Below are positions 1 to 25,639 of a stretch of 25,639 nucleotides of DNA, in pieces (within the stretch, counting starts at the first letter, position 1; each line of letters begins with the position of its first letter). Made by a program: the position numbers and the translations under genes. The stretch is from positions 1 through 25,639 of the IMG/VR virus record IMGVR_UViG_3300032116_001186. One strand, written 5' to 3'. Source of the stretch: a virus. Below the pieces are notes generated by a model that was not told where the DNA came from, made no database searches, and was given only the letters and a program-made list of their open reading frames with translations.

Positions 1-1406
1 TGACGGGTTCGGGTGTCAACACAAATTTCATTGAACCCGTTCGCCAAGGTATTTTTCAAAATGTGGTGGCGGGAACATCGATCACCGATTTGGAAAAATA
101 TTTGACAACGTACATTTTGGGAAATCCCAATGTGGACGGTTTGTTGTCCCGTTATGTGAAACAAGTTAGTCGGGACGCGTTGAACCAATACGACGGCCAA
201 GTCAACGCCAAGATCGCGGAGGAATTCGGATTGGACGCGTTTCGATACGTCGGTTCGTTGATCGACGATTCACGTCCCCAATGTCGTCGTTGGGTCAACA
301 TGCGGGTGATCCAAAAATCCGAGTTGAACAACGAGTTGAATTGGGCCACATCAAACGGGACGGGAATGATCCCAGGAACGAACGCGGAAAATTTCGCGGT
401 GTTTCGTGGCGGTTACAATTGCAGACATTCGGCGATCCCGTTCAAATTGACCAAATCACAACGCGAACAATTGGGAATGGAGGCGGAAAAAACCGAGGAA
501 AAACAAACAACCAAGGTTGACGATCAAATCGCAGAGGTAAAAAAGGACAATAAAACGACCCAAAAGGAATTCGACCAAGCGGTGGCCAAAAAACAATTGA
601 ATGACGAATATTTCATTTCGTCCCAATCGCCACAAATCAACAAAGCGTTTTTTGATTTGATCGCCGACCAAGACGGGGCCGCGGAAATCGCCGCAGAGTT
701 CAACACGATTTCGGGTTTGGTTTCCGCAACCGAGGCAACCAACCCACAATCCAAATCCAAATTGTTCGACAACAAACCCAAGATCAACAAATACAATGTT
801 TTCAAATTGGGAAAGGGTGTCGGCGGCGCGTGTGGAATTGACAACAAATGTTGTTTGGTCAAAGTAGGGAAAGGACAAACAATCATTGGTCGTTCATACG
901 ACGACGAATTCAAGATCGCCACCGAAAAAATGGAGGAATGGCACAAAAAAAATGTTCCCAATGGTCGCATTGGAACCAATTCAAAAGGTCAAAAAGTTTA
1001 CGCGGACGAACAAGGTTACACGATCGCGGCAATTGATAAAAATGGGAAACCCCGATTTTTCACCATGTCGTCATTGTCGGAGGCCATGGACAAAAATGTC
1101 GCCCCAACCGTGACCCATGAATTCGCCCATTTGATCCACAACAAAGTGGATCCGAAATCATTCGCGGGAATGGGTGATCGTGTAAAAATCAAAGATTTGG
1201 CCGCCCAATTGGGTGTCAAATTAAGCGACGCCCCAACCACATACGGATCAACCAATTGGTCCGAGTTTTGGACCGAATCATGGACCGCTTACACATACGC
1301 CCCAAAATGGTTTGAAACGGAACACAACGCCGCGTTCAAGTTATTCGAAAAATTATTGGACGAATATCAAATCGACCCGAAAACAATCAAACAATTCACA
1401 AAATGA
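1..1406 (+). CDS. Phage head morphogenesis (SPP1 gp7 / Mu F-like) protein fused to a C-terminal HExxH metallopeptidase-like domain, 5'-partial
   Basis: The reading frame is open from the left edge (first full codon at 3), so the gene starts outside the window; the GTG at 63 is internal. Counting residues from that GTG, about 40-130 resemble the C-terminal part of phage minor head/morphogenesis proteins: a helical lead-in, then DDSRPQCRRW and GGYNCRHSAIPF, the Cys/His pattern typical of that family. A charged linker follows (about 135-175). At 351-359 there is THEFAHLIH, an HExxH zinc-protease signature (H352, E353, H356), with WSEFWTESWTAY at 399-410 offering a possible third ligand (E401 or E405). 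The family acts in capsid assembly next to the portal. The protease part could act in head maturation, in virion processing or on a host target; the sequence does not say which. It overlaps the next gene by ATGA. Confidence 0.8.
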   Translation, partial: TGSGVNTNFIEPVRQGIFQNVVAGTSITDLEKYLTTYILGNPNVDGLLSRYVKQVSRDALNQYDGQVNAKIAEEFGLDAFRYVGSLIDDSRPQCRRWVNMRVIQKSELNNELNWATSNGTGMIPGTNAENFAVFRGGYNCRHSAIPFKLTKSQREQLGMEAEKTEEKQTTKVDDQIAEVKKDNKTTQKEFDQAVAKKQLNDEYFISSQSPQINKAFFDLIADQDGAAEIAAEFNTISGLVSATEATNPQSKSKLFDNKPKINKYNVFKLGKGVGGACGIDNKCCLVKVGKGQTIIGRSYDDEFKIATEKMEEWHKKNVPNGRIGTNSKGQKVYADEQGYTIAAIDKNGKPRFFTMSSLSEAMDKNVAPTVTHEFAHLIHNKVDPKSFAGMGDRVKIKDLAAQLGVKLSDAPTTYGSTNWSEFWTESWTAYTYAPKWFETEHNAAFKLFEKLLDEYQIDPKTIKQFTK

Positions 1407-1594
1407 CAATTGAAAAAATGACCGAATTGGCGGAAATGACAAACATGGCCGCCATGAATGACGACATTGAAACATTGAAAAAAATCAAATCGATCATTGA
1501 CAACGACAACACCGAGGAATTCAAATCAAACATGGGTGACGAATGGTTTTATTCGTCATTGACGTCCGCGCAAATCAACGCGTTGGAATCATGA
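1403..1594 (+). CDS. Small acidic helical protein, unknown function
   Basis: The predicted protein has 63 residues. Its ATG overlaps the stop of the head morphogenesis gene (ATGA), so it is probably translated by coupling. It is acidic and predicted mostly helical, starting MTIEKMTELAEMTNMAAMNDD, with a middle KKIKSIIDND stretch and no Cys or membrane segment. I do not recognise it. Its position between minor head protein and scaffold suggests a head-module accessory factor, but this is inference only. The last codons overlap the -33-like box of the promoter that serves the next gene. Confidence 0.6.
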   Translation: MTIEKMTELAEMTNMAAMNDDIETLKKIKSIIDNDNTEEFKSNMGDEWFYSSLTSAQINALES

Positions 1595-1610
1595 ATTTGA
1601 CGTATATTTG
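1583..1610 (+). promoter_or_regulatory. Bacteroidota-type promoter (TTG-N17-TATATTTG)
   Basis: TTG at 1583-1585 and TATATTTG at 1603-1610 match the Bacteroidota -33/-7 arrangement (TTG ... TAnnTTTG). The core TTTGACGTATATTTG at 1596-1610 is repeated exactly at 9247-9261 and nearly so at 20909-20923. The downstream ATG is at 1627, giving a short leader ending in AACAAACAA. It lies over the 3' end of the preceding gene. Confidence 0.7.
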
Positions 1611-1626
1611 TGAAAACAACAAACAA

Positions 1627-1923: not shown

Positions 1924-1937
1924 AAAAACAACGACCC

Positions 1938-2780: not shown

Positions 2781-2954
2781 AAAACGGGCCGTCGGGCCAA
2801 AACGAAATCCACGGGTTCGCCAAACCAAAATGGCAAACAACGGGGAACCGACCCATTTCGGAATGATCACATTTTTGTGTGGTTGTGACGTCATGGGTTT
2901 CGTGTTTTAGGACCCCACCAAAATCAAAAAAGTTAAACCAAAAAAAAAAACATC
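2781..2954 (+). other. 174-base 5' untranslated/intergenic region before the capsid gene
   Basis: No gene is visible. It contains nested inverted repeats: ACCCAT (2851-2856) with ATGGGT (2893-2898), enclosing TCACA (2867-2871) with TGTGA (2884-2888). The 8-base palindrome TGACGTCA lies at 2886-2893. A weak promoter candidate is TTG 2883-2885, 17 bases, then TGTTTTAG 2903-2910. The last bases before ATG are a long A-run rather than a Shine-Dalgarno site. The capsid mRNA may therefore start here or carry a structured leader. Confidence 0.45.
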
Positions 2955-3977
2955 ATGGCATTTACACAAGGTCTTTGTCAAAAATTACAAGCGGATTTGA
3001 ATTCCGTGGCGGGAATGAACGCCCCCGCATTGAAACGCGATCGCGTTGGTTATTTGGACGCGTTAATGTCCGAGGAAAACCGAATGGGATTTGAAGCGAT
3101 TCCAATCCCAACGAACGGAAAAAATCGCACCGTTCAAGTGAATTACATTCAACGCGGAACCGATTCGGACGTGAATTTGACATGTTCAAATTCATGTGAC
3201 ACCGAACAAGAAATCGCGCCGTTTGAAACCAACGTGTCAATCACGAATTGTTTGGAAACCAAAGGAATGAAATTTTCCGAGGATCAAATGAGAAAATTGT
3301 GTGAGGCGGATTCGGTTTATGTATCGAACGTGATCATGTCACAAATGAACGCAATCAACACCGCATTGAACAAACAATTGTTGGCGGAACAAGCGTCAAA
3401 TTTTGGAAAGTTCGCAGACGGAACAACCCAAAAATCAATCAAATTGTTCGAAGCAACAACAAACGCCCCCCGTGCGATCGCGTCGGCCCAAATCCGTCAC
3501 GAATACGATTTGGTTGGTGCGAGTGGTGCGCCAATGATCATTGGCGGCGGGAATTTCGATTTGTACGCAAAAACACAACAAATCGCATGTTGTAACGCCA
3601 ACACGGGAACCGATTTGTCACGTTGGACCGATTACATGTATTTCAACGACCGTTTCGCGGAAAGCGTAATTGGTGCGGGTGAATTCGTGGTTTTGGCCCC
3701 GAACGCGGTTCAATTGTTGACATGGAACAAATACGTTGGCGATTACGCAAAAAGAAACGACGTTTTCGAACACGGAACGATCACCGATCCATTCACGGGT
3801 TTGACATACGATTTGAAAGTTCATTACGACGATTGTGCCGACGAATGGTCGATCAAATTGTTGTTGAATTGGGAATTGTTTTTCATTCCAGGACAAGCGT
3901 TCAAATCGTCGGATCCAAATTTTGGCGTGAATTACACGTTCAATTTCAAAGATTGTTCAACAATCGTTGGTTGTTAA
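2955..3977 (+). CDS. Probable major capsid protein
   Basis: The protein has 340 residues and follows the scaffold-like gene. It has no signal peptide or membrane segment and a mixed alpha/beta pattern. Near the N-terminus, GYLDALMSEENRMGFEAIPI resembles the start of a coat protein; later come a long helix (SEDQMRKLCEADSVYVSNVI) and late beta-rich segments (FTGLTYDLKVHYDDCADEW). Ten or more Cys residues are present, many in the N-terminal and C-terminal thirds, which is high for a coat protein. Its own A-rich leader upstream and a hairpin immediately downstream fit a highly expressed unit. HK97-fold identity is inferred from position and size, not shown by a motif. Confidence 0.7.
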   Translation: MAFTQGLCQKLQADLNSVAGMNAPALKRDRVGYLDALMSEENRMGFEAIPIPTNGKNRTVQVNYIQRGTDSDVNLTCSNSCDTEQEIAPFETNVSITNCLETKGMKFSEDQMRKLCEADSVYVSNVIMSQMNAINTALNKQLLAEQASNFGKFADGTTQKSIKLFEATTNAPRAIASAQIRHEYDLVGASGAPMIIGGGNFDLYAKTQQIACCNANTGTDLSRWTDYMYFNDRFAESVIGAGEFVVLAPNAVQLLTWNKYVGDYAKRNDVFEHGTITDPFTGLTYDLKVHYDDCADEWSIKLLLNWELFFIPGQAFKSSDPNFGVNYTFNFKDCSTIVGC

Positions 3978-5226: not shown

Positions 5227-5654
5227 TTTTCCACCAACAACAATTGAACAATGTGGATCCAATGGTGAAATTTGCCGTTGAATTGATCCACAAACGTGTC
5301 GCGCCATTTGACGTTTTCGTTGTGGCGTCGGATCGTGAATCAACCGATCGGATCGAACGAATGGAGGTTGTCGCCAAGGGACAATTTACCAAACCGTCAT
5401 GGATCAAATCAACATCAAAATCCAACGGTGTGATTTTTTTTGTGACATCGACCAATTTCCGCAGAAAATCCAACAAAATGATTTCCGAGGCCATGGAGGC
5501 CACCAAAAAGGAAATCGAGGGGTTGACATTGGAATCGGTTGATCATGCAAAATTCACGGCGTTTTTTGTCGCCATGAAAGCCAAAAAAGAAAAAACCGAG
5601 GAACCGATCGCGGATCAACCCGCAGAGGAACCAACAATTGAATCCCAGGAATGA
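5223..5654 (+). CDS. Unknown protein with charged C-terminal tail
   Basis: The protein has 143 residues; its ATG overlaps the preceding stop (ATGA). About 1-110 look folded, with alternating strands (FDVFVVASDRES, GVIFFVTSTNFRRKS) and helices (MISEAMEATKKEIEGL). The last 30 residues are Lys- then Glu/Pro-rich (KKEKTEEPIADQPAEEP). No catalytic motif is evident. It sits between a probable virion protein and the endolysin gene, so it may be virion-related, but I do not recognise it. Confidence 0.6.
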   Translation: MIFHQQQLNNVDPMVKFAVELIHKRVAPFDVFVVASDRESTDRIERMEVVAKGQFTKPSWIKSTSKSNGVIFFVTSTNFRRKSNKMISEAMEATKKEIEGLTLESVDHAKFTAFFVAMKAKKEKTEEPIADQPAEEPTIESQE

Positions 5655-6160
5655 AAAAACCATTCAAATATTTGGTCATTCATTGCACCGCAACACATGA
5701 GGGGAAAAATATTTCACCCGAAACAATTGTTCGTTGGCATACGGCCCCACAACCAAATGGTCGTGGTTGGTCGCGTGTTGGATATTCGGACATGATTTTG
5801 TTGGACGGATCCCGTCACAAATTTGTGGAACACAATGGTGATCGATTCATTGACAACAATGAAATCACGAATGGCGTCAAAGGGATCAATTCAATCGCCC
5901 GTCATGTTGTTTATGTCGGAGGATTGGATCCAAAATCGTCCAAGGCCAAAAACACATTGACCGAGGTTCAAAAACAAACATTGATTGGAATCATTCATGA
6001 AGTGTTGGCGTATCAACCCGACGTGATCATTGGAGGCCACAATCAATTCGACAATAAAGCGTGTCCGTCATTTTGGGTTCCGAAATTTTTGGAATCAATT
6101 GGCGTTCCCGAAAAAAATATTTACAAAAACGACCCGTTTGGATATGGCCGCATGTTTTGA
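5651..6160 (+). CDS. Endolysin, N-acetylmuramoyl-L-alanine amidase (Amidase_2 / T7 lysozyme type)
   Basis: The protein has 169 residues, close to the size of T7 lysozyme, and is a single catalytic domain without a cell-wall binding module or signal peptide. It cleaves the amide bond between N-acetylmuramic acid and L-Ala of peptidoglycan. Visible family features are VIHCTAT with H11 as zinc ligand, GRGWSRVGYSD with Y45, and GGHNQFDNKACPSF with H130 and C138 as zinc ligands and K136 as the likely catalytic Lys. With no export signal it should need the holin encoded about 1 kb downstream. The ATG overlaps the previous stop. Confidence 0.93.
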   Translation: MKKPFKYLVIHCTATHEGKNISPETIVRWHTAPQPNGRGWSRVGYSDMILLDGSRHKFVEHNGDRFIDNNEITNGVKGINSIARHVVYVGGLDPKSSKAKNTLTEVQKQTLIGIIHEVLAYQPDVIIGGHNQFDNKACPSFWVPKFLESIGVPEKNIYKNDPFGYGRMF

Positions 6161-7085
6161 AAATTTCATTGGGATCCGTTGTGTTTCCCAAACCGCCCCA
6201 AAATCGGGGTTGTTCATTGACGATTTGGAGGGAATCAATTTAAGATTCGCCGCAGACGTGGCGGATTCGGGTTTTTCGTCGGGCGTCCAATTGGTTGAAT
6301 CGAAAATTCGATTCGCCACCCAATTGGTGTTGAACGACATCGCCCGTTTCACCATTCCATTTTTTCGAATGAATTCAATCGTTGACGAATTGGTTGTCGG
6401 CGAATGGAAAAACACATTTTTGACACCCGATCCAAGCGATCGAGGCGTTCGGATCACAACCCGCGAATCGCGATTGTTGCGCGTCCGTGTTCAATCCGTT
6501 CAAATTCGGATCATGGAACCAAATTTCATTGGCCAAATCAAAATTGTGGACGGGACCCAGGTGGCCACGTTTGATTTTGAAACCGACGCGAATGGAAACG
6601 CCGAGGTGTTCCCGAATTATTTGTCGCAGACGGCGGAAATTTACGTTGTCCAAGACAACACCGCGATCAATCCAAACAACACCATGGTCAAAGGTGGTTG
6701 TTCATGTTCGTCAAAAAAATCGGAATTCATGATCGCCAACGGTTGGAATGGTGTCACAACCACGACAACGTCGTTTGGTTTGGTTGTCCAAGCCAACGCG
6801 GAATGTTCAACCGACGAAATCGGTTGTGTGTTGGCCCAAAAAATTCGTTTCGCGGTTTTGTATCGTGCGGGAATTGAAATAATAAAGGAGGCGATCACAA
6901 CCGATCGTTTGAATTCGGTGACGTTGTTGGATTCCGACAAATGTGAATTTTTGTTGACCGAATTCAACAACCAATACAAACAACAATTTGAAACCGTCGT
7001 CCAAACATTGCCCGAATTGTTTTCACGAATCGACGACATTTGTGTCGTGTGCAATCAATCGCGGTATGTTTACGGAACGCCATAA
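6144..7085 (+). CDS. Bacteroidota-phage structural-type protein, unknown role
   Basis: I chose ATG 6144, overlapping the end of the amidase gene by 17 bases; the protein has 313 residues. The start FIGIRCVSQTAPKSGLFIDDLEGINL resembles a conserved N-terminal motif (glycine-leucine-[FY]-I-[ND]-D-L-x-G-I) that I remember from Bacteroidota phage and prophage proteins of unknown structure. Further in, beta-rich stretches (IGQIKIVDGTQVATFDFETD) precede GGCSCSSKKSEF, then a helical C-terminal part ending with two CxxC-like Cys (DICVVCNQS). It has no transmembrane segment. It is likely a virion or tail component, from context only. Confidence 0.65.
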   Translation: MAACFENFIGIRCVSQTAPKSGLFIDDLEGINLRFAADVADSGFSSGVQLVESKIRFATQLVLNDIARFTIPFFRMNSIVDELVVGEWKNTFLTPDPSDRGVRITTRESRLLRVRVQSVQIRIMEPNFIGQIKIVDGTQVATFDFETDANGNAEVFPNYLSQTAEIYVVQDNTAINPNNTMVKGGCSCSSKKSEFMIANGWNGVTTTTTSFGLVVQANAECSTDEIGCVLAQKIRFAVLYRAGIEIIKEAITTDRLNSVTLLDSDKCEFLLTEFNNQYKQQFETVVQTLPELFSRIDDICVVCNQSRYVYGTP

Positions 7086-7097: not shown

Positions 7098-7181
7098 ATG
7101 AAATGTAATTGCAACAAGCCAAGCCGACCCGCGTCGCGTCCCGTTTCACGTCCAACGTCGAAACCACGTCCAAGGTATTGA
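7098..7181 (+). CDS. 27-residue Arg/Pro/Ser-rich mini-protein (candidate)
   Basis: ATG 7098 to TGA 7179-7181 encodes a 27-residue peptide starting MKCNCNKPSRPASRP and continuing with S-R-P and S-K-P repeats to the C-terminus. It has a CxC at the start, like the 9277 protein (MNCGC). Codons follow the window's habit of avoiding CT. It lies in the gap before the holin, on a frame different from the rival TTG-started extension of the holin. It may be a real peptide, or only a leader. No family is recognised. Confidence 0.4.
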   Translation: MKCNCNKPSRPASRPVSRPTSKPRPRY

Positions 7182-7201
7182 ACAACAAAACAAAATCGAT
7201 C

Positions 7202-7720
7202 ATGTCGTCGTATCAACCACACACACCCAGGATTCAAACGGAATTGTTCGAAATATTCGAATCGGTGTGTTCGTTAAAATTAAAAATGAAAACATTGTTT
7301 TTTTCCGTTGTCGGAGGATTCACCATTGGAGGATTGTCCGCATTGATCGACGATTGGATTTTTTCCCCGTCGGTGTCTTATTTCGCGTTGATCGGTTTGA
7401 TTTGTGCGGATCATGTCACGGGCGTTTCGTTGGCGTGGCGTCACAATAAATTCGAAACCAAAAAAGCGTTGCGAATTTTTTGGACGATATTGTCCCACAC
7501 GGGTTTGTTAATGTTTGCCACCAATTTGTCCAAAGGATCCGCCGCGTTGTTTTGGTTGAATGAGGGCGTTTTTGTTCCATTGGTGATTGTCAATTTGTTG
7601 TCATTGATCAAAAATTTGTCATTGTTGGGTTGGATCAAACGAGGATTGGCGGATTTCTTTTATCGCAAAATTGACGCCTACAAAAACCAATACATTGAAA
7701 AAAATGAAATCCCGAATTGA
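7202..7720 (+). CDS. Holin (phage_holin_4-like)
   Basis: Using ATG 7202 the protein has 172 residues; a second ATG at 7286 (MKTLFFSV) is a possible internal start. Four hydrophobic segments are visible: TLFFSVVGGFTIGGLSALI, then YFALIGLICADHVTGVSLAW, FWTILSHTGLLMFATNL and FVPLVIVNLLSLIKNLSLLGW. The DHVTGVSLAWRHNKFETKKALR loop and the ending LLGWIKRGL are typical of the phage_holin_4 type. The holin permeabilises the inner membrane and lets the amidase reach the wall. It belongs to the same lysis cassette as the amidase and the spanin-like gene, which overlaps its end by 17 bases. Confidence 0.8.
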   Translation: MSSYQPHTPRIQTELFEIFESVCSLKLKMKTLFFSVVGGFTIGGLSALIDDWIFSPSVSYFALIGLICADHVTGVSLAWRHNKFETKKALRIFWTILSHTGLLMFATNLSKGSAALFWLNEGVFVPLVIVNLLSLIKNLSLLGWIKRGLADFFYRKIDAYKNQYIEKNEIPN

Positions 7721-11187: not shown

Positions 11188-11490
11188 ATGTCAAACAACA
11201 ACAACCCCCAGGCAACACCACAATTTGAAATGGTGGCCCGTTATGCAACCCCAAACCAACCCAATGAAGCGATCCAAATCGTTCGGTTTCATTTATTGCA
11301 AATGAACGCCCGTCGATTTGCAACGATCGAGGAATCGGGATTTGAGTTTTGGACCAAGGACAACCGCGTGTTTGTGATCCAACGCGACGGTGATTTTTTC
11401 CGATTGTTCACATCGATCGATTTCGATACATTGGACACGGCGTTGGACGCCATTGACAAATTTTTCCGAATCCCAAAAGTTGATTTTTGA
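11188..11490 (+). CDS. Small early protein, unknown
   Basis: The protein has 100 residues. After an Asn-rich start (MSNNNNPQ), it holds an alpha/beta domain (AIQIVRFHLLQMNARRF, FWTKDNRVFVIQRDGDFFRL, TALDAIDKFFRI). No known motif is visible. It lies directly upstream of the methyltransferase-like gene, 2 bases from its ATG, so the two are probably coupled. Confidence 0.55.
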   Translation: MSNNNNPQATPQFEMVARYATPNQPNEAIQIVRFHLLQMNARRFATIEESGFEFWTKDNRVFVIQRDGDFFRLFTSIDFDTLDTALDAIDKFFRIPKVDF

Positions 11491-11492
11491 TC

Positions 11493-12185
11493 ATGCAAAT
11501 TTCCGAAATCAAAATTTTGGTGGCGTGTGAGGAATCGGACGAAGTCCGTGGACGTTTCGAATCATTGGGATTTGACGCGTGGTCATGCGACATTCAACCA
11601 AACCGAAACCCAAACGCCAAACATTTCCAATTGGACGTGTTGGAGGTGATCACAATGGGGTGGGACGCCATGATCGCGTTCCCCCCATGTACACATTTGG
11701 CCGCGTCGGGATCGCAATGGTTCGCAGAAAAACAAAAGGACGGACGCCAACAACAAGCGATCGAATTTTTCATGGCCATGATCAACGCCCCGATCAATCA
11801 AATCGCCGTTGAAAATCCCATTGGGATCATGTCGTCACAATATCGCCAACCCGATCAAATCATTCAACCGTATTTTTTCGGGGATCCGTTCACGAAAACA
11901 ACATGTTTGTGGCTGAAAAATTTTCCGTTGTTGTATCACAACGACGCCCCCAATTTGTTCGACGACGTTGTCACCCATACGTCCAAGGGTGAATTCATTG
12001 AAATCGTGGACAAACGGACGGGGAAAATTAAGAAAATGCCAAAGTGGTACAACGACGCGTTCAATGGCCCCAAGGCGTTGCGATCACAAACAAGATCCAA
12101 GACATTCCCAGGAATCGCCGAGGCCATGGCCAAACAATGGTCCGAATCAATCATTCAATTCAAAAGTAAAAATGGAACAAAATAA
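11493..12185 (+). CDS. Orphan cytosine-C5 methyltransferase-like protein (phage type)
   Basis: ATG 11493 gives 230 residues. Visible elements are KILVACEESDEVRGRF then GFDAWSCDIQPN near the N-terminus (cofactor-side motif, atypical), IAFPPCTHLAASGSQW at 62-77 with the catalytic-type Pro-Pro-Cys (C66), and IAVENPIG at 104-111, equivalent to the ENV motif of C5 methyltransferases. It lacks a recognisable target-recognition domain and is shorter than typical Dcm-type enzymes. I recall this as a recurring phage protein with the same sequence pattern. No restriction partner lies next to it. It may modify phage DNA; activity and target are unproven. Confidence 0.75.
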   Translation: MQISEIKILVACEESDEVRGRFESLGFDAWSCDIQPNRNPNAKHFQLDVLEVITMGWDAMIAFPPCTHLAASGSQWFAEKQKDGRQQQAIEFFMAMINAPINQIAVENPIGIMSSQYRQPDQIIQPYFFGDPFTKTTCLWLKNFPLLYHNDAPNLFDDVVTHTSKGEFIEIVDKRTGKIKKMPKWYNDAFNGPKALRSQTRSKTFPGIAEAMAKQWSESIIQFKSKNGTK

Positions 12186-13064: not shown

Positions 13065-14066
13065 ATGAACGAGATTCAAAAAAACCAAGTCCACACGATT
13101 GACGTGGGCAAACTACAAACGTATTTGAACGCCATGGGAATGGCGAACAATTTGACCAAAGGCGAATTTGAACAATTCGTTGAAATCGCCCAAGGGTTCG
13201 GATTGAATCCATTTAAGCGTGAAATTTACGCGAACAAATACGGGAACCAATTTTCCGTGATTGTCGGTTATGAAACCTACATCAAACGCGCGGAACGTTC
13301 GGGATTGTTGTCGGGTTGGTCGGTGAAAACCGACGGATCCGTCAATTTCCAAAAACCAAAGGAATCGACATTGAGGGCGGAAATCACGATCCACCGTCGT
13401 GATTTTCAACACCCATTCATTCATGAGGTTTATTTTTCCGAATATTACGGAACCACCAAGGACGGAACGTTGAACAAATTTTGGGGATCCAAACCCATGA
13501 CCATGATCAAAAAAGTCGCCATGGCCCAGGGTTTCCGATTGTGTTTTTCGGACGAGTTGGGCGGTATGCCATACACCGCGGAGGAATTGAACACCATGGA
13601 CGTGGATCATGTGACGGTTGAAGATCCGAAACCAAACGGATCCAAAAAACAACCCGCGACCGAGGTGGCCCAAATCGAACCACCAAAACCGCAGACATTC
13701 GCGGACGAAATCAATCGATTGAAATCATTGTTGGAATCGATCGCCGCGGCGACAACCGTGGACGATTTGGTGATCGTTTGGAAAAACAATTCCGATTTGC
13801 ATGGAAACCCCGATTTCAAACAATCATTGACCAACAAACGCAAACGTTTGGAATCACCACCCGCAGAGGATCCAAAACCCGAATTGAAATCAACCGAGGA
13901 AATGATCACATTGATCAACGATTGTTCAACCGAATCCGAGGTGTTGGAATTGACAATGGACGAACAACGTCGTGACGTATTGGACGCCGCGATTGAACGC
14001 GTTGTCAAGATCCAAAGCGGTGAACAAATGGAAATGTTTGACGATCAAAATGGAGGCGACAAATGA
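13065..14066 (+). CDS. bet: Bet/RecT-family single-strand annealing protein
   Basis: The protein has 333 residues. The N-terminal two-thirds match the Red-beta/Bet type: FVEIAQGFGLNPFKREIYA, a stretch through VIVGYETYIKRAERSGL, then HEVYFSEYYGT, PMTMIKKVAMAQGFRLCFS and ELGGMPYTAEELN. These proteins bind single-stranded DNA and anneal complementary strands in phage recombination. The C-terminal third is acidic and variable, with low-complexity stretches (PPAEDPKPELKSTEEM). No exonuclease partner is visible. Its own promoter with an operator-like dyad lies upstream, and SSB about 2 kb downstream fits a replication/recombination module. Confidence 0.88.
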   Translation: MNEIQKNQVHTIDVGKLQTYLNAMGMANNLTKGEFEQFVEIAQGFGLNPFKREIYANKYGNQFSVIVGYETYIKRAERSGLLSGWSVKTDGSVNFQKPKESTLRAEITIHRRDFQHPFIHEVYFSEYYGTTKDGTLNKFWGSKPMTMIKKVAMAQGFRLCFSDELGGMPYTAEELNTMDVDHVTVEDPKPNGSKKQPATEVAQIEPPKPQTFADEINRLKSLLESIAAATTVDDLVIVWKNNSDLHGNPDFKQSLTNKRKRLESPPAEDPKPELKSTEEMITLINDCSTESEVLELTMDEQRRDVLDAAIERVVKIQSGEQMEMFDDQNGGDK

Positions 14067-14458
14067 AACGAGTGACCGAAAACCGAATCCAACGGATCAA
14101 ATCAAACATCAAATCCCGTTTCGGATCCATTCGTCATTTTTGCGTGTTGGCGCGGTTCAATTATTGGACCGCCACCAACGCGTTCAATGGTCGATTGTCA
14201 AATGATCACATGTTGGACGTATTGTCGGACATTGAACGGTTGATCCAAACGACACCCGTTCCGCCATGTTCGGAATGTATCAACACCCAGGAACGCGAAT
14301 TTGTTCGTGTCGCGTTGATTACACGTTGGAAATCAATTCAAAAGTTCGTGGACAACAACCCCGATTTTTCAATGACCTTTGTTCACAATGTCATTTCGGG
14401 GAAACGCAAGATCCGCGACAACCGATTCAACCAATTGATTGAAACCGTGAAATCATGA
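14063..14458 (+). CDS. Small basic protein with HTH-like C-terminus, unknown
   Basis: The protein has 131 residues; ATGA overlap with the Bet gene. The N-terminus is basic (MKRVTENRIQRIKSNIKSR). A CxxC (PPCSECIN) lies near the middle. The C-terminal 34 residues (DFSMTFVHNVISGKRKIRD, then FNQLIETVKS) look like the recognition-helix part of an XRE-type helix-turn-helix. DNA binding, possibly regulatory, is an inference. Confidence 0.6.
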   Translation: MKRVTENRIQRIKSNIKSRFGSIRHFCVLARFNYWTATNAFNGRLSNDHMLDVLSDIERLIQTTPVPPCSECINTQEREFVRVALITRWKSIQKFVDNNPDFSMTFVHNVISGKRKIRDNRFNQLIETVKS

Positions 14459-15264
14459 ACGACAACAACATCAAAAAAAATTCAAGGGATCGCCAACCCG
14501 CGTTTCAATTTTACGCGGGTGATTGGTTGACGGATCCGTCGTTGCGAATGTGTTCATTTGAAACGCGGGGCGTTTGGATTGATTTGTTGTGTGTCATGTT
14601 TTTGTCCGACGAAATCGGTGTGTTGAAGATCGGGAACCAAATTTTGGACGAAAACGGTGTCCGAAAATTGGTCGGAATGTCGCCGAAAAAATTCAAAAAA
14701 GTGTGGAATGAATTGACAAATTTCGGAATATTAAAGTGTGACGAAAACGGTCGGTTTTTTTCCAAACGAATGGTCGGTGACGAACGGATTCGCCAGGTTC
14801 GACGGGAGGTTGGCAAATTAGGAGGCAACCCGAAATTGACAAAATCGGTTGGTCGTTTGGTTAAGCAAAAGGACAACCAAAATCCAACCCCTACATTTTC
14901 ATCTTCAATTTCAATTTCAAATAATACAAACAACGGTGTTGTTTGTGTGTCGGACCATGAATTGGTTGATCATGGACATGTTCATTTTTTGATTGATCAT
15001 GTGGCGAAAAATTTCCCAAATGTCGCAAAAATCAAAAACCAATTGACAAACGATCAATGTGAAAAATTGGAGGCGGAATTTTCCCGCGCGGACATCATTG
15101 AAGTTTTGGAGGCCATGGAAAACCATTCCAACGTGTCGAAAAAATACATGTCGGTTTCTTTAACTTTGAAAAATTGGATAAAAATTCGAAAACAAAATGG
15201 AAAACAACAACAACAAAATGGTCGTTCGAAACCCGATTTCGACGATACAATTCGCAAGTTTTAA
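14455..15264 (+). CDS. Replication-initiation-type protein (DUF1376/YdaU-like N-terminus)
   Basis: The protein has 269 residues; ATGA overlap with the preceding gene. QPAFQFYAGDWLTDPSLRMC followed by SFETRGVWIDLLCVMFLSDE is the start typical of phage DUF1376/YdaU-like replication proteins, with a winged-helix look. About 130-165 is a low-complexity Lys/Gln/Asn/Ser linker. The C-terminal domain (about 170-250) has VSDHELVDHGHVHFLIDHV and a helix EKLEAEFSRADIIEVLEAM, like helicase-loader or primosome helper proteins. It probably recruits the host replicative helicase, but the helicase itself is not in the window. Confidence 0.65.
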   Translation: MNDNNIKKNSRDRQPAFQFYAGDWLTDPSLRMCSFETRGVWIDLLCVMFLSDEIGVLKIGNQILDENGVRKLVGMSPKKFKKVWNELTNFGILKCDENGRFFSKRMVGDERIRQVRREVGKLGGNPKLTKSVGRLVKQKDNQNPTPTFSSSISISNNTNNGVVCVSDHELVDHGHVHFLIDHVAKNFPNVAKIKNQLTNDQCEKLEAEFSRADIIEVLEAMENHSNVSKKYMSVSLTLKNWIKIRKQNGKQQQQNGRSKPDFDDTIRKF

Positions 15265-16326: not shown

Positions 16327-16728
16327 ATGAACAAAATCATTGTGATCGGACGCGTTGGACGCGATCCCGAAACCCGAACATTCGGTCAAGGAACAAACGT
16401 CACGAATTTTTCGTTGGCCGTGACCGAGAAATGGACCCGCAACGGACAAAAGGAGGAAAAAACCACATGGTTCAACATTTCCCATTTTGGAAAGGGTGGG
16501 GAATTTTCCGCCCAATACGTTCGCAAAGGACAAAAAATCGCCGTTGACGGGAAATTGGAAATCCGTGAATGGACGGATTCGAATGGAATGATCCGCAAGG
16601 ATCCCCAAATCGTGGCGGAAAACGTTGAAATTTTGGCGGATCCAAACCGATCCGAATCAAACCCCCAGGTTCAACCACAAAATCAAACCACGGGTCCAAA
16701 TGAGGACGGTGACGATTTGCCGTTTTAA
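16327..16728 (+). CDS. ssb: Single-stranded DNA-binding protein
   Basis: The protein has 133 residues: an OB-fold of bacterial SSB type (NKIIVIGRVGRDPETRTF, then NFSLAVTEKW, TTWFNISHFGKGGEF and YVRKGQKIAVDGKLEIREW), a Gln/Asn-rich linker and the acidic tip DDLPF, which in SSBs binds partner proteins. It protects single-stranded DNA during replication and recombination, and probably works with the Bet-like protein. Its leader is ACCAAACAACACC. Confidence 0.96.
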   Translation: MNKIIVIGRVGRDPETRTFGQGTNVTNFSLAVTEKWTRNGQKEEKTTWFNISHFGKGGEFSAQYVRKGQKIAVDGKLEIREWTDSNGMIRKDPQIVAENVEILADPNRSESNPQVQPQNQTTGPNEDGDDLPF

Positions 16729-18281: not shown

Positions 18282-18665
18282 ATGAACCGATCAATTCGCC
18301 GCGCCGCGGGGCGTGAACAAACAAAGATCCACACCGAATTTTGGACGGTGGTCAATTCGTTTTCCAAATATGTGGGGAACGATTTTCCACGTCCCGAATT
18401 GGCGGATCATTTGATCACCAAACGCCACAACGACGTTTGGAATCGATTTTGTGATCATTGGTCACAAACCAACAACCATTTGATCAAACCCGATCGAATG
18501 GCGTTTTTCAATTTTGTCACGGGGAACGACGCAACAACAACAACGACGGACCATTTTGGCAATGGTCAAAACATCGCGCCAAATGACAAAGAAAAAAACG
18601 GGGTTGAAACCGAACCCGAAATCGGTCAAATCAAAATCGAAGCCGACCCAGGATCCGACGATTGA
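18282..18665 (+). CDS. Unknown protein preceding terminase
   Basis: ATG 18282 lies directly after the promoter; the protein has 127 residues. The N-terminus is basic and helical (MNRSIRRAAGREQTKIH), followed by a folded-looking part (FPRPELADHLITKRHNDVWN, then FCDHWSQTNNHLIKPDRM). The C-terminal 45 residues are disordered and acidic (GVETEPEIGQIKIEADPG); the terminase small subunit gene begins inside this tail in another frame. No family is recognised. Confidence 0.55.
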   Translation: MNRSIRRAAGREQTKIHTEFWTVVNSFSKYVGNDFPRPELADHLITKRHNDVWNRFCDHWSQTNNHLIKPDRMAFFNFVTGNDATTTTTDHFGNGQNIAPNDKEKNGVETEPEIGQIKIEADPGSDD

Positions 18666-19119
18666 ACGTCGGGCCAAGGCCGAACGAATTTGTGAATTGT
18701 ATGAATCGGGCGACGTCACGATCGAATCGTGTTGTGGCGAAAACGGGATCACCGTTCGAACGTTTTGGAATTGGGCGAATACCGATTCCGAAATTTCCGA
18801 CCGTTACAAAAAAGCAAAGGACAAACACGGACGGATCGGAAAGGAATCAATCCGTGAAAAGGCGTTGGACGGGTTGACCCGATTGTTGACGGGATATTGG
18901 ATCGAGGAATCGGAAACGGAGGAATTGTTTTCCAAAACGGGACAATTGGCGGGTCGCAGAGTAAAGAAAAAAAACCGATTCATTGGACCCAACGCCACGG
19001 CGGTGATCTTTGCGTTGAAAAATACCGATCCATTGAATTGGGCGGACAACATGACGATCGACGTGGTTGGTGACGAACAAATTTTCAAAATTGGCGAACA
19101 AACAATCAAATTTTCATAA
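18562..19119 (+). CDS. terS: Terminase small subunit
   Basis: ATG 18562 gives 185 residues, ATG 18583 gives 178; either overlaps the preceding gene by 83-104 bases. The N-terminus is strongly basic (KKKTGLKPNPKSVKSKSK). A helix-turn-helix follows, ERICELYESGDVTIESCC with GITVRTFWNWANTD, the DNA-binding pattern of TerS proteins, then helical KESIREKALDGLTRLLTGY and a basic RRVKKKNRFIGPN. TerS binds the packaging site on phage DNA and delivers it to TerL. The large subunit follows after two small genes, which supports the call. Confidence 0.82.
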   Translation: MVKTSRQMTKKKTGLKPNPKSVKSKSKPTQDPTIERRAKAERICELYESGDVTIESCCGENGITVRTFWNWANTDSEISDRYKKAKDKHGRIGKESIREKALDGLTRLLTGYWIEESETEELFSKTGQLAGRRVKKKNRFIGPNATAVIFALKNTDPLNWADNMTIDVVGDEQIFKIGEQTIKFS

Positions 19120-19640: not shown

Positions 19641-20906
19641 ATGATCAAATTCGAACCCCACCCGAAACAATTGGAATTCATGGAGGCCGTGTTTTCGGGG
19701 AAATATGAATCGTTGTTGTATGGTGGCGCGGCGGGTGGTGGGAAATCATTCGTGTCATTGGCCACATTGATTTTGTTGGCCAAGGTGTTCCCCAATTCGA
19801 AATCCCATGTGATCCGTGAATCGTTGCCGTCATTGAAGCGAACAACGATCCCCACGTTTTTCAAGTTATGCCCGAAAACATTCATTCGGTCGTATCACCA
19901 AACGGATCACATTGTCACATTCACCAACGGTTCGACATTGGAATTTTTCCCCGAAAATTTCAACATGGACAAAGATTTGACCCGATTCGACGGATTGGAA
20001 ACCAATTTTTTTTTGATTGAGGAAGCCCAGGAAGTGCAAAAAAAAACGTTTGAAAAATGCAAATTGAGGGTGGGACGTCACATCATTCCGAACCAACCGC
20101 CCCGATTGATCATGTTGACATGTAACCCGTCGCAGACATGGACCAAAACCGAATTCCATGAACCCGCCATGTCGGGAACATTGCCGTCGTCGTATTTTTA
20201 CAAAAGGGCGTTAATGATCGACAATCCAACATTGCCACCCGAATATTTGGCGGCCATGGAAAATTTGGACGACGTGACCCGCGCCGTGTTCGTCAATGGG
20301 GATTGGGACGTGGTTGACGTGGATCGCCCGTTCGCGTATGCGTTCAACAAATTCAAAACCGTCCGTCCCGCAGAGGTCAACCCAAAGGAACCGATCATTT
20401 TGTCGTTCGATTTCAACGTGGACCCGATCACATGTATCGCGGGACAATCGTTCGACGGCAAAATCCGAATCATTCGTGAATTCCGTTTGAGGAATTCGGA
20501 CGTGTTCCAATTGTGCGAAACGATCCGAACGGTGTTTGGGGATCAATTGTTCATTGTCACGGGTGACGCGTCGGGGGCGAACCGTTCCGCCATGACCAAA
20601 GGGGCGTTGAATTACTACATGATCATTCGCGACGAATTGGGGATCCCCAAATCCGCGTTCAAGGTTCCAAGCGTGAACCCGTCAATCAAAAATTCGCGCG
20701 TGTTGTTGAATTCCATGTTGGAAAAACACACCGATTTGATCATTGATCCGTCGTGTCAATTTTTGATCCATGATTTGCAGAACGTCGAAACCACACCCAA
20801 CGGTGACATTGACAAAGGTCGCGACGCGTCGTTGACCCATTTGTTGGATTGTTTCCGATATTATTTGTGGACGTTCCACAACGATTTCATTCGTTGGAGG
20901 AATTGA
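19641..20906 (+). CDS. terL: Terminase large subunit (packaging ATPase and nuclease)
   Basis: The protein has 421 residues and is the DNA-packaging motor that cuts the genome. Walker A is GGAAGGGKS at 28-36 (K35). The Walker B-like segment is FFLIEEAQ at 123-130 (E127/E128), and a coupling motif LTCNPS lies at about 159-164. The nuclease domain shows acidic residues at D257 (LSFDFNVDP), D309 (VTGDASG) and D403 (LTHLLDCFRYY), as in the RNase H-like fold of terminases. Length and motif order are normal for a one-piece TerL. Its gene follows terS and two small genes, and it ends just before a promoter that opens the tail operon. Confidence 0.95.
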   Translation: MIKFEPHPKQLEFMEAVFSGKYESLLYGGAAGGGKSFVSLATLILLAKVFPNSKSHVIRESLPSLKRTTIPTFFKLCPKTFIRSYHQTDHIVTFTNGSTLEFFPENFNMDKDLTRFDGLETNFFLIEEAQEVQKKTFEKCKLRVGRHIIPNQPPRLIMLTCNPSQTWTKTEFHEPAMSGTLPSSYFYKRALMIDNPTLPPEYLAAMENLDDVTRAVFVNGDWDVVDVDRPFAYAFNKFKTVRPAEVNPKEPIILSFDFNVDPITCIAGQSFDGKIRIIREFRLRNSDVFQLCETIRTVFGDQLFIVTGDASGANRSAMTKGALNYYMIIRDELGIPKSAFKVPSVNPSIKNSRVLLNSMLEKHTDLIIDPSCQFLIHDLQNVETTPNGDIDKGRDASLTHLLDCFRYYLWTFHNDFIRWRN

Positions 20907-21813: not shown

Positions 21814-24800
21814 ATGGCCGAGGTCAAAAACATTTTGTTCAAATTACAAGCCGACACGTCACAAATGCGTCGGGAATTGGACGCCATAAAGTCGGGGATC
21901 ACCAATGTGGGAACCGCAACCAAACAAACGGAATCCGCGGTTTCGGGTTTGAAAAAAACATTGGCGGGGGCCGCCGCCGCGTTTGGTGGGATTTCGATCG
22001 CCGCGTCCGCCATTGATTTCGGAAAGGGTGCGATCCAAGCGGTCGCAGATTACGAAAATGTCCAAATTTCATTGGAAACATTTTTGGGATCCGCAGAACA
22101 AGCGAAACAAGTGTTCGCGGATTTGGAACAATTTTCAATCAAAACCCCATTCACCCCCGAACAAGTGAACCAAGCGGGGAAAGCGTTGTTGGCGTTTGGT
22201 GAACCCGTTGAATCATTACAAACCACATTGGGACGAATCGGTGACGTTGCGTCCGCCACGGGAAAGGATTTCAATGAATTGGCGGTGATATACGGAAAGG
22301 CCAGGGTTCAAGGGACATTGTTCGCGGAGGACATCAACCAATTGACCGAGGCGGGTGTCCCGATCATTGGGGAATTCGCCAAACAATTGGGTGTCACCGA
22401 GGGCCAAGTCAAAAAATTAGGATCGGAGGGTCGGATTTCATTCGCCAATTTGGAGGAGGGTTTCAAATCATTGACGTCGGAGGGCGGACGATTTTTTGGA
22501 TTGACCGATAAGTTGTCACAATCAACGTCGGGTCGATTGTCCACATTGGAGGGGAATTGGACCGAATTGAAACGAACGATCGGTGAGGGTTTGTTGCCCG
22601 TGTTCGAATTGTTCGTCAATGGGGCGTCCCGTTTGATCCAAGTGTTGGGATCCATTCCAAAGTTCATTGAAGATAATCGACGGACGTTGTTGTTGTTGGC
22701 GGGTGTTGTTGCGTTTTATGTTGGCCAACGAAAGGCGGCGATCCAGGCGGAAATACTTTATGAGGCCCGTTTCAAAATATTGTTGGTCCGCGAACAATTG
22801 GGTTTGGCGTTGACCAAAGCCAAGGCGTTTTTCACACGGGCCGCCGCAACCGCGACCAATGTTTTGACGGGTGCAACGTCGGCCCAAGCGGTCGCCACAA
22901 ATGTCGCCACGGGTGCGACCCGCGCGTTCAACACCGCGTTGAAAGCGAATCCGATCGGGTTTATCATTGGCGCGATCACCACATTGTTGGCGTTGTTTTC
23001 CGATTACATTTTCGGGGTTGACGACGCCGCCGCAGAAACCAAAAAATTGTCCATTGAACAACAAGCCATGGCGGATTTCACCGACCAAATGAACAAATCG
23101 GTCGCAGAGGAACAACGCGAATTGGATCAATTGTTTGGGGCGTTAAAGAAAACCAACGCGGGATCCGCGGAACGTTCGAAATTGATCAATGAAATCAATT
23201 CGAAATATGGGATCACCTTGAAAAATATTTCCGACGAAAAAAAGTTCGTCGAACAATTGGACATTGCGTATCAAAATTTGGTCAATTCGATCAAAGCCAA
23301 GGCCGCCGCCGAAGCGGGTCAAAAAGTGATCACCGATTTGTTGTCCAAACAAATCCAAGCGCAAACGTTTATTGAAAATTCAATTGTTGAATTGGGTCGA
23401 TACGTTGCGGAAAACCCGATCGTGTTGACGGCGGATCCGTCCAAGTTGGTCGGAGGAAACAAGGTTGTCGCGGAATCATTGAAAAATTTGTCCGCGGAAC
23501 AATTGAAAGCGGTCCAAGCGATCGCAAAAGAAACCGAAAACGCCGCCAAGGCCACCGAGGAATGGATCGAAACGGGGAACGCGGCCCAGGGTGAAACATT
23601 GTACAATCAACAATCCGCAGACATTCGCCGAGTTCGGGAGGAAACCGAGGGGGCGAACGGTGCGATCAATCGATTGAATGAAACCGTTGGAAACGCCGCG
23701 AATCAATTCGAAGCCAACAACCCGTTTTTGGTTTTGAATGAGGAACAACAAAAATTGATTGACGAATCGGGACAATCGGGATTCCAATATTTTTTGGGGA
23801 TCGTGGGTCAAACCGACGACGCGATCAACAAGGTCCAACAAACCGTCACCAATTTCACCAAGGCCGCAAAGGAACCGATCAAATTGGGCGGAATCGATCC
23901 AAAGGAGGCGGAAAAAATTCGCGACGCGATCGCCAAATTGAAATTGTCATTGGATCGTGAATTGGCCAAACAAAAAATCGAATTGAATTTCCAACCCACC
24001 GTTTTGGCAAACCCCAAGACATTGGAGGAACGAATCGCACAAATCCGAGGGTTGGCCCAAAAGGAACGCGAAATTTGGGAAAACGAAATTGAAAACCGAA
24101 TTGAAGATTCACGAAAGGAGGGGACATATACGACCGAAATCGCGGCCCAATTTGCCACGATCAAACAAAACGGTTTGACATTGATCGAAAACGAAACCGA
24201 GGACAAAATCACCGATTTGAAAGTTGAAGCCGAGAAAAAACGCCAACAAACATTGGCCGCGATTGCAGAGGTTGAAGCCGAAAAACGGATCACATTGGAG
24301 GAACAAAACACCCGCAAATTGGAGGCGGAACGATCCAAATTGATCAATCAATTGGGTGAAGCCAGGGGAACCGAGGAACAAAATCGGATCCGTCAACAAT
24401 TGAACGCGAATTTGGCGTTGATCCAACAATCATTGGATCGTGAAAGGGAGGCCAAGATCGCCGCCATTGAAGCCGAACGCGACGCCGAATTGAACAATGT
24501 GGAATTGACCGCAGAGGAACGACAATTGATTGTCAAAAAAGCGGATTTGGATATTTTGAAAACCAAACAAGAGTATCACGACCGATCGATCGAATTGTTG
24601 GAGGACGAAACCGAAAAAACAAAAAAGGAAGCCGAGGAAAGGAAAAAAGCGATCCAACAAGGAATCGAGGACGTTTTGAAAGCGACGTTGGATTTGGCCA
24701 ACGCGGTGATCAACGCCCAAATTCAACAAACCGAAACCGCCATTTCGGCCCAACAAAAACGTGTGGACGCCGCCGCGGAAATTGCAGAGAAAGGAAACGC

Positions 24801-25371
24801 GGAATTGTTGCAAATCGAGGAGGAACGATTGCAAAAGTTGAACGAACAAAAAGCCAAATTTGTCCGCGCCCAACAAGCGTTGGCGGCGATCGAGTTGGTG
24901 GCGAATTCCGCCGTGGCAATTTCAAAGGCCGCCGCCGAGGGTGGGGCCGCCGCACCGTTCACCATTGCCGCGACATTGATCGCATTGGCCGCGGGATTAG
25001 TTGCCGCCCGCGCCCAAGCCAGGGCCGCCGCGGGATCATTCGCAGAGGGTGGATATACGGGGGACGGTGGAAAATACCAACCCGCGGGTGTGGTTCACAA
25101 AGGCGAATTTGTGATCACAAAAGAAAAAACCCGTCAATGGCGTCCCGTATTGGAGGCGATCCACGCGGGTCGTGATCCAATGTTGACCAAAGGAATCAAC
25201 GAACGGATCGTGGCCGTGAACAACAAGGCCATGGAATCAAAATTGGAAAGGATTGAAACGGCGATCCGTGATCAAAAAGGATTGGCGTTGTCAATTGACG
25301 AACGTGGGATCCATGGGATTGTTTCCCGTTTGGATTACAAAAACCAACGAATCCGAAACAAAGCGAAATGA
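21814..25371 (+). CDS. Tail tape measure protein
   Basis: The protein has 1185 residues, the longest gene here, and sets tail length. The N-terminal part (KLQADTSQMRRELDAIKSG) is coiled, followed by SAEQAKQVFADLEQFSIKTP and the typical tape-measure stretch with FAEDINQLTEAGVPIIGEFA. Hydrophobic segments lie near 290-305 (LLLLAGVVAFYVGQ) and 375-400 (NPIGFIIGAITTLLALFSDY). Long coiled coils follow at about 720-1010. The end has an Ala-rich stretch (ALAAGLVAARAQARAAAG) and GGYTGDGGKYQPAGVVHKGEF, a common end motif of this family in Bacteroidota phages. A siphovirus-type tail is supported. Its stop overlaps the ATG of the next gene. Confidence 0.92.
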   Translation: MAEVKNILFKLQADTSQMRRELDAIKSGITNVGTATKQTESAVSGLKKTLAGAAAAFGGISIAASAIDFGKGAIQAVADYENVQISLETFLGSAEQAKQVFADLEQFSIKTPFTPEQVNQAGKALLAFGEPVESLQTTLGRIGDVASATGKDFNELAVIYGKARVQGTLFAEDINQLTEAGVPIIGEFAKQLGVTEGQVKKLGSEGRISFANLEEGFKSLTSEGGRFFGLTDKLSQSTSGRLSTLEGNWTELKRTIGEGLLPVFELFVNGASRLIQVLGSIPKFIEDNRRTLLLLAGVVAFYVGQRKAAIQAEILYEARFKILLVREQLGLALTKAKAFFTRAAATATNVLTGATSAQAVATNVATGATRAFNTALKANPIGFIIGAITTLLALFSDYIFGVDDAAAETKKLSIEQQAMADFTDQMNKSVAEEQRELDQLFGALKKTNAGSAERSKLINEINSKYGITLKNISDEKKFVEQLDIAYQNLVNSIKAKAAAEAGQKVITDLLSKQIQAQTFIENSIVELGRYVAENPIVLTADPSKLVGGNKVVAESLKNLSAEQLKAVQAIAKETENAAKATEEWIETGNAAQGETLYNQQSADIRRVREETEGANGAINRLNETVGNAANQFEANNPFLVLNEEQQKLIDESGQSGFQYFLGIVGQTDDAINKVQQTVTNFTKAAKEPIKLGGIDPKEAEKIRDAIAKLKLSLDRELAKQKIELNFQPTVLANPKTLEERIAQIRGLAQKEREIWENEIENRIEDSRKEGTYTTEIAAQFATIKQNGLTLIENETEDKITDLKVEAEKKRQQTLAAIAEVEAEKRITLEEQNTRKLEAERSKLINQLGEARGTEEQNRIRQQLNANLALIQQSLDREREAKIAAIEAERDAELNNVELTAEERQLIVKKADLDILKTKQEYHDRSIELLEDETEKTKKEAEERKKAIQQGIEDVLKATLDLANAVINAQIQQTETAISAQQKRVDAAAEIAEKGNAELLQIEEERLQKLNEQKAKFVRAQQALAAIELVANSAVAISKAAAEGGAAAPFTIAATLIALAAGLVAARAQARAAAGSFAEGGYTGDGGKYQPAGVVHKGEFVITKEKTRQWRPVLEAIHAGRDPMLTKGINERIVAVNNKAMESKLERIETAIRDQKGLALSIDERGIHGIVSRLDYKNQRIRNKAK

Positions 25372-25639
25372 ACACATCAATCAAAATAAAGTTGAACGGC
25401 GTGTGGATCACGGGACGGATCGACGGGACATCGTCGTTTGAGGTCACGTTGCGACGATCCGACGCCAATGGTCAAACGGCCAAATCGTTTTCGTCCGAGT
25501 TGACATTTTACGACGACGGGTATCAAATTTTGAAAACCGCATTGATCGACGATCCGAATGGGTTCGCCAACGAGGTCCCGATCGAGGTGTGGGACGATTG
25601 TTGTGGGACCGCCCAATTCGTTGGGGTGATCAAAGGGGA
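25368..25639 (+). CDS. Tail protein after the tape measure (distal tail-like), 3'-partial
   Basis: ATG 25368 overlaps the tape-measure stop (ATGA), and the frame stays open to the window's right edge, giving 90 residues. It is beta-rich (NTSIKIKLNGVWITGRIDG, then SFEVTLRRSDANGQTAKS and LTFYDDGYQILKTALID) with a CC near VWDDCCGTAQF. The position directly after the tape measure matches distal tail or baseplate proteins in siphoviruses, but the truncated sequence shows no decisive motif. Confidence 0.6.
   Translation, partial: MNTSIKIKLNGVWITGRIDGTSSFEVTLRRSDANGQTAKSFSSELTFYDDGYQILKTALIDDPNGFANEVPIEVWDDCCGTAQFVGVIKG

Follow-up and report, generated by a model that had tools for sequence, protein, structure and literature searches.

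Near-total loss of CT and avoidance of gapped A..T sites in a tailed-phage genome fragment, consistent with escape from Type I-like restriction

The 25,639-nucleotide DNA of IMG/VR virus record IMGVR_UViG_3300032116_001186 (positions 1 to 25,639, hereafter the window) is a tailed-phage genome fragment, and it raises the question of why a phage should have given up almost every CT dinucleotide. On the + strand we counted 33 CT against 1301 expected from base composition (ratio 0.025), and 1589 TC (ratio 1.22). AG (535 against 1888 expected, 0.28) and TA (339 against 1866, 0.18) were also depleted, GC was mildly low (0.66), and TT and AA were enriched (1.71 and 1.42). The original prediction, made from the sequence alone, had put CT at about 33, had described TC as abundant and AGCT as absent, and had located the only two CT of the tape-measure gene; the exact counts, including 0 AGCT in the window, agreed on each point, the two positions were exactly right, and CT did not return toward expectation. 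The losses of TA, which is stronger than that of AG, and of GC had been missed.

Comparison of the coding DNA with a synonymous null gave 31 observed CT against 1002 expected, 303 TA against 1379 and 498 AG against 1686. CT in coding DNA can always be avoided by synonyms, and it is nearly gone: TTG accounts for 487 of 524 leucine codons (CTN for 10), only 8 of 1863 serine, proline, threonine and alanine codons end in CT, and a codon ending in C precedes one starting with T in 13 cases, as had been predicted in each instance. AG is unavoidable only where lysine, glutamate or glutamine precedes a codon starting with G, and 329 of the 498 coding AG lie at such places, which bears out the claim that AG is reduced and mostly unavoidable where it persists. 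The intergenic DNA, which amounts to 2003 base pairs (bp) when genes are called with a simple script taking the longest open reading frame (ORF), contained 2 CT against 95 expected, 35 AG against 144 and 38 TA against 167. Because intergenic DNA shows the same loss, codon use alone fails to explain the depletion.

An assembly artefact is unlikely, because the feature is shared by a near-identical public contig and by the relative G012. The former, IMGVR 3300031951_008164 (25,494 bp), is 100% identical to the window over 12,334 bp and may derive from the same reads; the latter is a 33.6-kilobase (kb) sequence with a 127-bp terminal repeat, about 92% identical, which aligns to 24,077 bases of the window at 83–93% per segment. 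A scan with the terminase yielded 62 related loci, with CT below 0.3 in 43 of them and from 0.49 to 1.02 in the other 19, and the trait is thus largely common to the clade of the window. Among 68 other phage contigs, strand-averaged CT was never below 0.72, against 0.15 in the twin of the window; these contigs were fetched through a methyltransferase-like gene of the window, and of the 78 loci obtained, nine under 5 kb and the twin itself (L200) were set aside. The non-avoiding relative G011 shares most genes with the window, with its replication block inverted; this block lies on the minus strand in G011 (L154/L155) and on the + strand in the avoiders where it was found. TA loss is possible without CT loss, because L183, a relative by its capsid gene, shows TA at 0.20 with CT at 0.74 and AG at 0.72. 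TA was also down to about 0.31–0.32 in two of the other phage contigs, L231 and L247.

At which level does the pressure act? The original prediction held that the two strands behave alike once amino-acid constraint is allowed for. When avoidable sites only were counted, CT and AG were near equal in several relatives (CT/AG 0.053/0.070 in G003, 0.084/0.095 in G008 and 0.20/0.25 in G006), where the claim stands; in the window it holds only in part (0.030/0.125; G012, 0.023/0.127). AG was the lower of the two in G010 (0.73/0.27) and G016 (0.70/0.26), and the non-avoider G011 gave 1.09/1.00. Avoidable CT and AG were correlated (Spearman 0.85) across 59 sequences, namely the window and loci of at least 9 kb, overlapping loci included. 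Avoidance was not confined to the transcript strand: both strands were affected in coding DNA, in intergenic DNA and in the gapped motif described below. All nameable genes of the window (terminase, tape measure, amidase, holin, RecT/Bet, single-strand DNA-binding protein and replisome organizer) lie on the + strand, and minus-strand ORFs of 200–330 amino acids are present in the ORF lists. The joint fall of CT and AG, the intergenic loss and the equal depletion of the gapped motif in both orientations support the predicted restriction-type pressure on double-stranded DNA.

This pressure is strong enough to alter proteins. Relative to expectation, lysine, glutamate or glutamine followed by alanine, aspartate, glutamate, glycine or valine occurred at 0.68 in the window, at 0.47 in G003 and at 0.95 in G011. 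In aligned orthologues, such residue pairs found only in the avoider or only in G011 numbered 107 and 199 for the window and 106 and 317 for G003; the same count was balanced against G011 for G009 (222/214) and G010 (124/109). Tyrosine, which needs TA, was found at 23 aligned positions in the window only and at 81 in G011 only.

The avoidance of these dinucleotides depends on a distant partner base. In group A (the window, G012 and L166, about 90–92% identical), avoidable AG stood at 0.193 when no T was present at distances (d) 8 and 9 downstream of the A, at 0.029 with one T and at 0.025 with two. The corresponding values were 0.357/0.112/0.098 in group D, 0.096/0.019/0.023 in group B and 0.96/0.97/1.07 in non-avoiding relatives. 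At control distances of 13 and 14, they were 0.120/0.125/0.178 in group A and 0.231/0.275/0.314 in group D. Since the avoidance of AG in group A is about sevenfold dependent on a T 8–9 bases away, AG acts there like one half of a bipartite site. In group C, AG fell from 0.111 through 0.057 to 0.039 with zero, one and two T at these distances, and in groups F and G from 0.32–0.33 to 0.20–0.23 with a T partner. The worst neighbours of AG were T at +9, +8 and +7 in group A (z −9, −8 and −7), and T at +9 (z −13) and +8 (z −11) and G at −4 (z −11) in group D; in the context profile of the non-avoiders no T position stood out. For TA, A..T distances of 8–10 were among the strongest effects on both sides, together with G at +2. 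In the window, positions +7 to +10 relative to AG held T with a probability of 0.09–0.14, against 0.19–0.23 for all A.

The same geometry appeared in scans of gapped pairs. A first spacing test, which included G009 twice (also as L190, the same contig), showed that AG and CT avoid each other at particular gaps, as in an AG...CT palindrome of variable spacing. A scan of gapped dinucleotide pairs, with G009 included once, found many depletions at gaps 5–9 in the avoiders, such as CA-N7-TG (15/130 in the window, observed/expected) and AG-N6-TC (2/37), and none at gaps above 3 in the pooled G011, L193 and L194. Pairs with p < 1e-8 in groups A and D lay at gaps 2–9, with peaks at 6–8 and at 2 and one beyond, and those in eight pooled other phages and in the non-avoiders at gap 2 only. 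Over distances 5–16, the most depleted base pair was A..T at d = 8 in the window, G012 and G009 and at d = 7 in group D, and A..T at d = 8 stood at 1.00 in the non-avoiders.

We extended the scan to 55 clade loci of at least 10 kb (of 98 fetched), which come from 42 public contigs, 13 of them giving two loci; related clade contigs are not independent in such counts. Twenty-seven of the 55 carried a total of 54 depletions at gaps 4–9 (p < 1e-7), all 54 of which pair A..T at 7–10, and none of the 55 showed a depletion at gaps 10–21. Among 43 other phage contigs (those of at least 10 kb among 77 fetched, some near-identical), a single depletion was found at gaps 4–9, and it lacked A..T; 65 of 80 GTDB loci were scanned and had none at these gaps. 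Forty shuffles of the window that kept its proteins and every dinucleotide count gave a mean of 0.8 depletions and a maximum of 3, against 11 in the real sequence, and they understate the contrast because 91% of bases remained unchanged. Three other phage contigs, L211, L213 and L276, had A..T at distance 8–9 at 0.84, 0.87 and 0.89 with no single significant gapped pair, perhaps a weaker Type I-like avoidance elsewhere.

The clearest gapped motif, BCA-N7-TS, occurred 6 times in the window against 166 expected, and only this spacing was affected (N6, 215/187; N8, 185/162). Its complement SA-N7-TGV was found at 7/175, and the depletion is therefore equal in both orientations. The avoidance differs by lineage: the ratio was 0.03–0.04 in five members of the group of the window, 0.22–0.32 in the group of G001, L003, L005/L172, L178, L179 and L169, 0.51–0.90 in 15 others, 0.95–1.04 in G004, L170, L173 and L183 (1.04 in the last), and 0.93–1.02 in four non-avoiders. 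Because these ratios vary between avoider groups, avoidance of CT and avoidance of BCA-N7-TS are separable. Of the second halves after BCA in group A, TA (0.97) and TT (1.09) were spared and TG and TC were low whatever base came next, with TCA-N7-TCG partly kept (9/34); ACA-N7-TC stood at 0.71, and ACA-N7-TA was depleted (1/23). GCA with T at d = 8 was nearly absent (0/33 in the window, 5/93 in group A), and the loss of GC therefore fits a GCA half-site.

Short motifs were lost as well, lineage by lineage. CCGG was absent from the window (0/109, Markov expectation), G012 (0/153) and G009 (0/119), GATC from G003 (0/185) and G004 (0/117), and CTAG from G011 (0/70). L169 matches part of the window at 77% identity and holds 33 CCGG and 35 GATG in 6.2 kb, with CT still at 0.08. 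GATG and CATC were both reduced on the + strand of the window (0/107 and 34/154, Markov) and both absent from the relative L172 (0/38 and 0/43). The original prediction had overlooked the absent CCGG and the loss of GATG and CATC in the window. G009 (L152/L153) had CTGGC at 0/30 on the + strand with GCCAG at 85/105, and ATC at 9/143 with GAT at 419/422. Group G (L159, L186 and L036) largely spares CT and avoids GAG/CTC and CCC/GGG, with CC-N1-GG at 0/44 and CC-N2-GG at 0/42.

Taken with the geometry, these results make it rather likely, in our view, that the lineage escapes host restriction by mass removal of Type I-like bipartite sites, and that the losses of CT/AG, TA and GC are the shadows of their half-sites. 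According to this proposal, a phage lineage, perhaps of Bacteroidota, would evade restriction through the loss of target sites. Besides short palindromes, it would have removed bipartite sites in very large number, each with an A on one strand and an A on the opposite strand (read as T) about 8–9 bases apart, which is the geometry of adenine-methylating Type I (or related Type IIG or IIB) systems. If many specificities share half-sites with AG/CT, TA, GCA or BCA, the cheapest escape would be to drop the half-site itself, and the outcome would be a near-total loss of CT, a strong loss of AG and TA and a mild loss of GC. The avoided sites are bipartite, with the N7 of BCA-N7-TS within the spacer of about 5–8 nonspecific bases expected of Type I, and they place one adenine per half on opposite strands at the expected d of 8–10, with some depletions at d = 7, one base below that range. 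BCA-N7-TS does not specify the roughly 6–8 bases of a Type I site (bases were tested through one after TS), and because a single Type I enzyme would need a longer site, we infer many combinable specificities. The agent would then be Type I-like restriction by the host, its many specificities being interchangeable, and the host perhaps a bacteroidete. That the regime was so diverse or so loosely specific in its bipartite adenine-reading enzymes that the phage gave up the half-site dinucleotides (CT/AG, TA) entirely and rewrote its proteins seems to us evenly balanced between right and wrong.

As for the host, the terminase relatives from the GTDB scan were all distant (no more than 39% identity in the best 80 of 459) and revealed no host; 10 of the 11 best of these relatives, again within the best 80 of 459, were Bacteroidota, and most of the rest Firmicutes. 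In the phage collection, 352 terminase matches were all below 60% identity (at most 28% among the 40 listed) and led to no host. The Type I specificity domain PF01420 exceeded its cut-off in 5 of 8 tested genomes with distant terminase relatives (from the 80 loci), a result that identifies no host, and no hsdS, hsdM or hsdR from a host was linked to the phage.

Several observations weigh against avoidance of Type I-like sites as the full explanation. The A..T geometry leaves some of the CT loss, and the strand bias of that loss, unaccounted for, and partner counts do not account for the excess of CT loss over AG loss in the window. With no partner at d = 7–11, AG and CT still stood at 0.29 and 0.046 in group A and at 0.50 and 0.27 in group D, and AG at 0.107 in group B. 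The effect of a T partner was weaker in groups C (AG without/with, 0.111/0.057), F (0.326/0.212) and G (0.317/0.215), and that for CT was almost nil in F and G. In group A the largest context effect came from C at −3, which favoured AG (z +11), and not from a T; across the clade, AG depletion and its interaction with T were only moderately correlated (Spearman 0.46). No significant gapped depletion of their own was found in 28 of the 55 clade loci. The A..T dip is not exclusive, since A..T at d = 8–10 was 0.94–0.96 in the eight pooled other phages (0.94 at d = 8) and single other phage contigs reached 0.84. BCA-N7-TS is far less specific than a single Type I site, which requires many enzymes or an unusually loose one; no host or restriction enzyme for this phage was seen in the searches made; and a published survey did not find that phages avoid Type I or IIG sites (PMC6286503).

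Four other explanations rank below avoidance of bipartite sites. The best placed, which we nevertheless consider unlikely, is one nuclease of host or phage (or one damaging agent) that reads bare CT/AG in double-stranded DNA, each site adding a small cost, as the original prediction had allowed. The residual avoidance without a partner base (AG 0.29, CT 0.046 in group A) and the graded, not absolute, loss would suit such an agent; the strong dependence of groups A, D and B on a T at a distance of 7–10 does not. Moreover, the 535 remaining AG would leave the minus strand cut hundreds of times, the affected tri- and tetranucleotides vary by lineage, and none of 43 queried proteins was found throughout the seven longer avoiders and not in G011. 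Selection on messenger RNA (mRNA), with CU and GAUG as cleavage or stability signals and genes on the + strand, is less likely still. It would account for avoidable CT lying below AG in the window (0.030 and 0.125) and for GATG at 0/130 against CATC at 27/53; it is opposed by the near equality of CT and AG in G003, G008 and G006, the absence of both GATG and CATC from L172, the equal depletion of BCA-N7-TS on both strands and the palindromes at zero count. Purging of short motifs resembling the protospacer-adjacent motif (PAM) of clustered regularly interspaced short palindromic repeats (CRISPR), as potential target starts, is very improbable: the avoided motifs are short, roughly symmetric in double-stranded DNA and lineage-specific, and PAM depletion has been published for phages (PMC4246573), but such purging predicts neither a partner T 8–9 bases away nor a bipartite motif exact at N7. 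Least credible of all is a mutational bias from CT to TT and AG to AA by deamination or repair with no selection, and modification-linked mutation as originally proposed is not supported. In favour of such a bias, TT and AA are enriched, TT is the partner of 17 of 33 unshared CT in the comparison with G012, and AA is the commonest partner of unshared AG. Against it, NCT codons were replaced by synonyms ending in A, C and G with alanine, threonine, proline and serine still common, G012 at 8.4% divergence has 12 of the window's 31 aligned CT in common with it, C/T differences occur at 9 of 1848 sites before T against 148 of 3089 before G, and gapped and palindromic motifs near zero cannot arise from dinucleotide mutation bias.

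The features of the window are collected in Table 1. The methyltransferase-like gene is identical in the near-identical contig, and no match to it was found in 18 relatives compared, several of them fragments. It lies at a break in the G012 alignment (11498 to 12172) and, though unmatched in these relatives, holds one CT only (11913). A phage-encoded cause of the avoidance was rejected on the comparison of 43 proteins given above.

Table 1. Positions of genes and other features in the window.
Feature	Position	Strand	Evidence or remark
Window, tailed-phage genome fragment	1..25639		CT 33/1301, AG 0.28, TA 0.18, GC 0.66
Probable major capsid protein	2955..3977	+	Inferred name, no profile match; 71–95% identity in relatives where found
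Remaining BCA-N7-TS site	3435..3446	+	One of six; others start at 6895, 18484, 21465, 21669 and 24576
Amidase endolysin	5651..6160	+	phrog_822, 4e-38
Holin, true start uncertain	7109..7720	+	PF05105, 23.5 bits against a cut-off of 22.2
DNA methyltransferase-like gene	11487..12185	+	phrog_757, 2e-58
RecT/Bet-like annealing protein	13065..14066	+	
Replisome organizer-like protein	14455..15264	+	phrog_13246, 1e-10
Single-strand DNA-binding protein	16327..16728	+	
Terminase small subunit, true start uncertain	18514..19119	+	phrog_309, 3e-14
Terminase large subunit, query for the clade search	19641..20906	+	phrog_979, 7e-25
Tail tape-measure protein, 1185 amino acids	21814..25371	+	phrog_9959, 4e-69
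Sole two CT of the tape-measure gene, at 22756 and 23217	22756..23218	+	Dinucleotide count

If avoidance of Type I-like sites is the correct explanation, this would be the first case of mass avoidance of sites with Type I geometry in phages, as far as our literature search shows; in the titles and abstract openings covered, with preprints outside its scope, no avoidance by phages at the dinucleotide level or with Type I geometry was described. It may indicate that the hosts combine specificity subunits from a very large set or, alternatively, that a new system of low specificity reads about four bases, as in BCA-N7-TS. Bipartite avoidance on a scale that empties dinucleotides and displaces amino acids would be a gauge of the strength of restriction in nature. 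The avoided motifs may reveal the restriction specificities of uncultured hosts from phage sequence alone, so that the defences shaping environmental phages would become open to direct test. As a simple test that needs no annotation, the A..T distance profile is applicable to any phage genome.

How does this avoidance compare with known systems? Strand-biased avoidance of sites is known for Type III enzymes, as in phage T7 and EcoP15I. The survey by Rusinov et al. 2018 (PMC6286503), for its part, mentions specific examples from earlier work. The window resembles the Type III cases in part, in having no GATG with the other strand partly tolerated, as does G009 with CTGGC and GCCAG; unlike them, it has both GATG and CATC reduced, L172 has neither, and CT falls short of the length of a Type III site. 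Depletion of PAM in phages, attributed to selection (Kupczok and Bollback 2014, PMC4246573), is similar in that short motifs are lost under host immunity, but the partner-base geometry is not expected there. According to PMC6286503, phages have been seen to avoid the sites of orthodox Type II enzymes almost exclusively, those of Type III very rarely and those of Type I or IIG not at all. The lineage-by-lineage absence of CCGG, GATC and CTAG in the clade of the window is of this Type II kind, and ordinary palindrome avoidance is also present in the other phage contigs compared; the main signal of the window differs in being bipartite, with A..T about one helical turn apart, in emptying dinucleotides and in altering proteins. 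A further likeness is to the Sau1 family of Type I systems, for which PMC5399793 gives methylated adenines 7–9 bp apart (d = 8–10), spacers of 5–7, half-sites including AGG, CAG, GAG, TAG, GTA and TTAA, and recognition by interchangeable target-recognition domains, single sites specifying about 6–8 bases. The avoided gap, the A..T distance and half-sites with AG and TA are common to both, whereas BCA-N7-TS specifies fewer than four bases.

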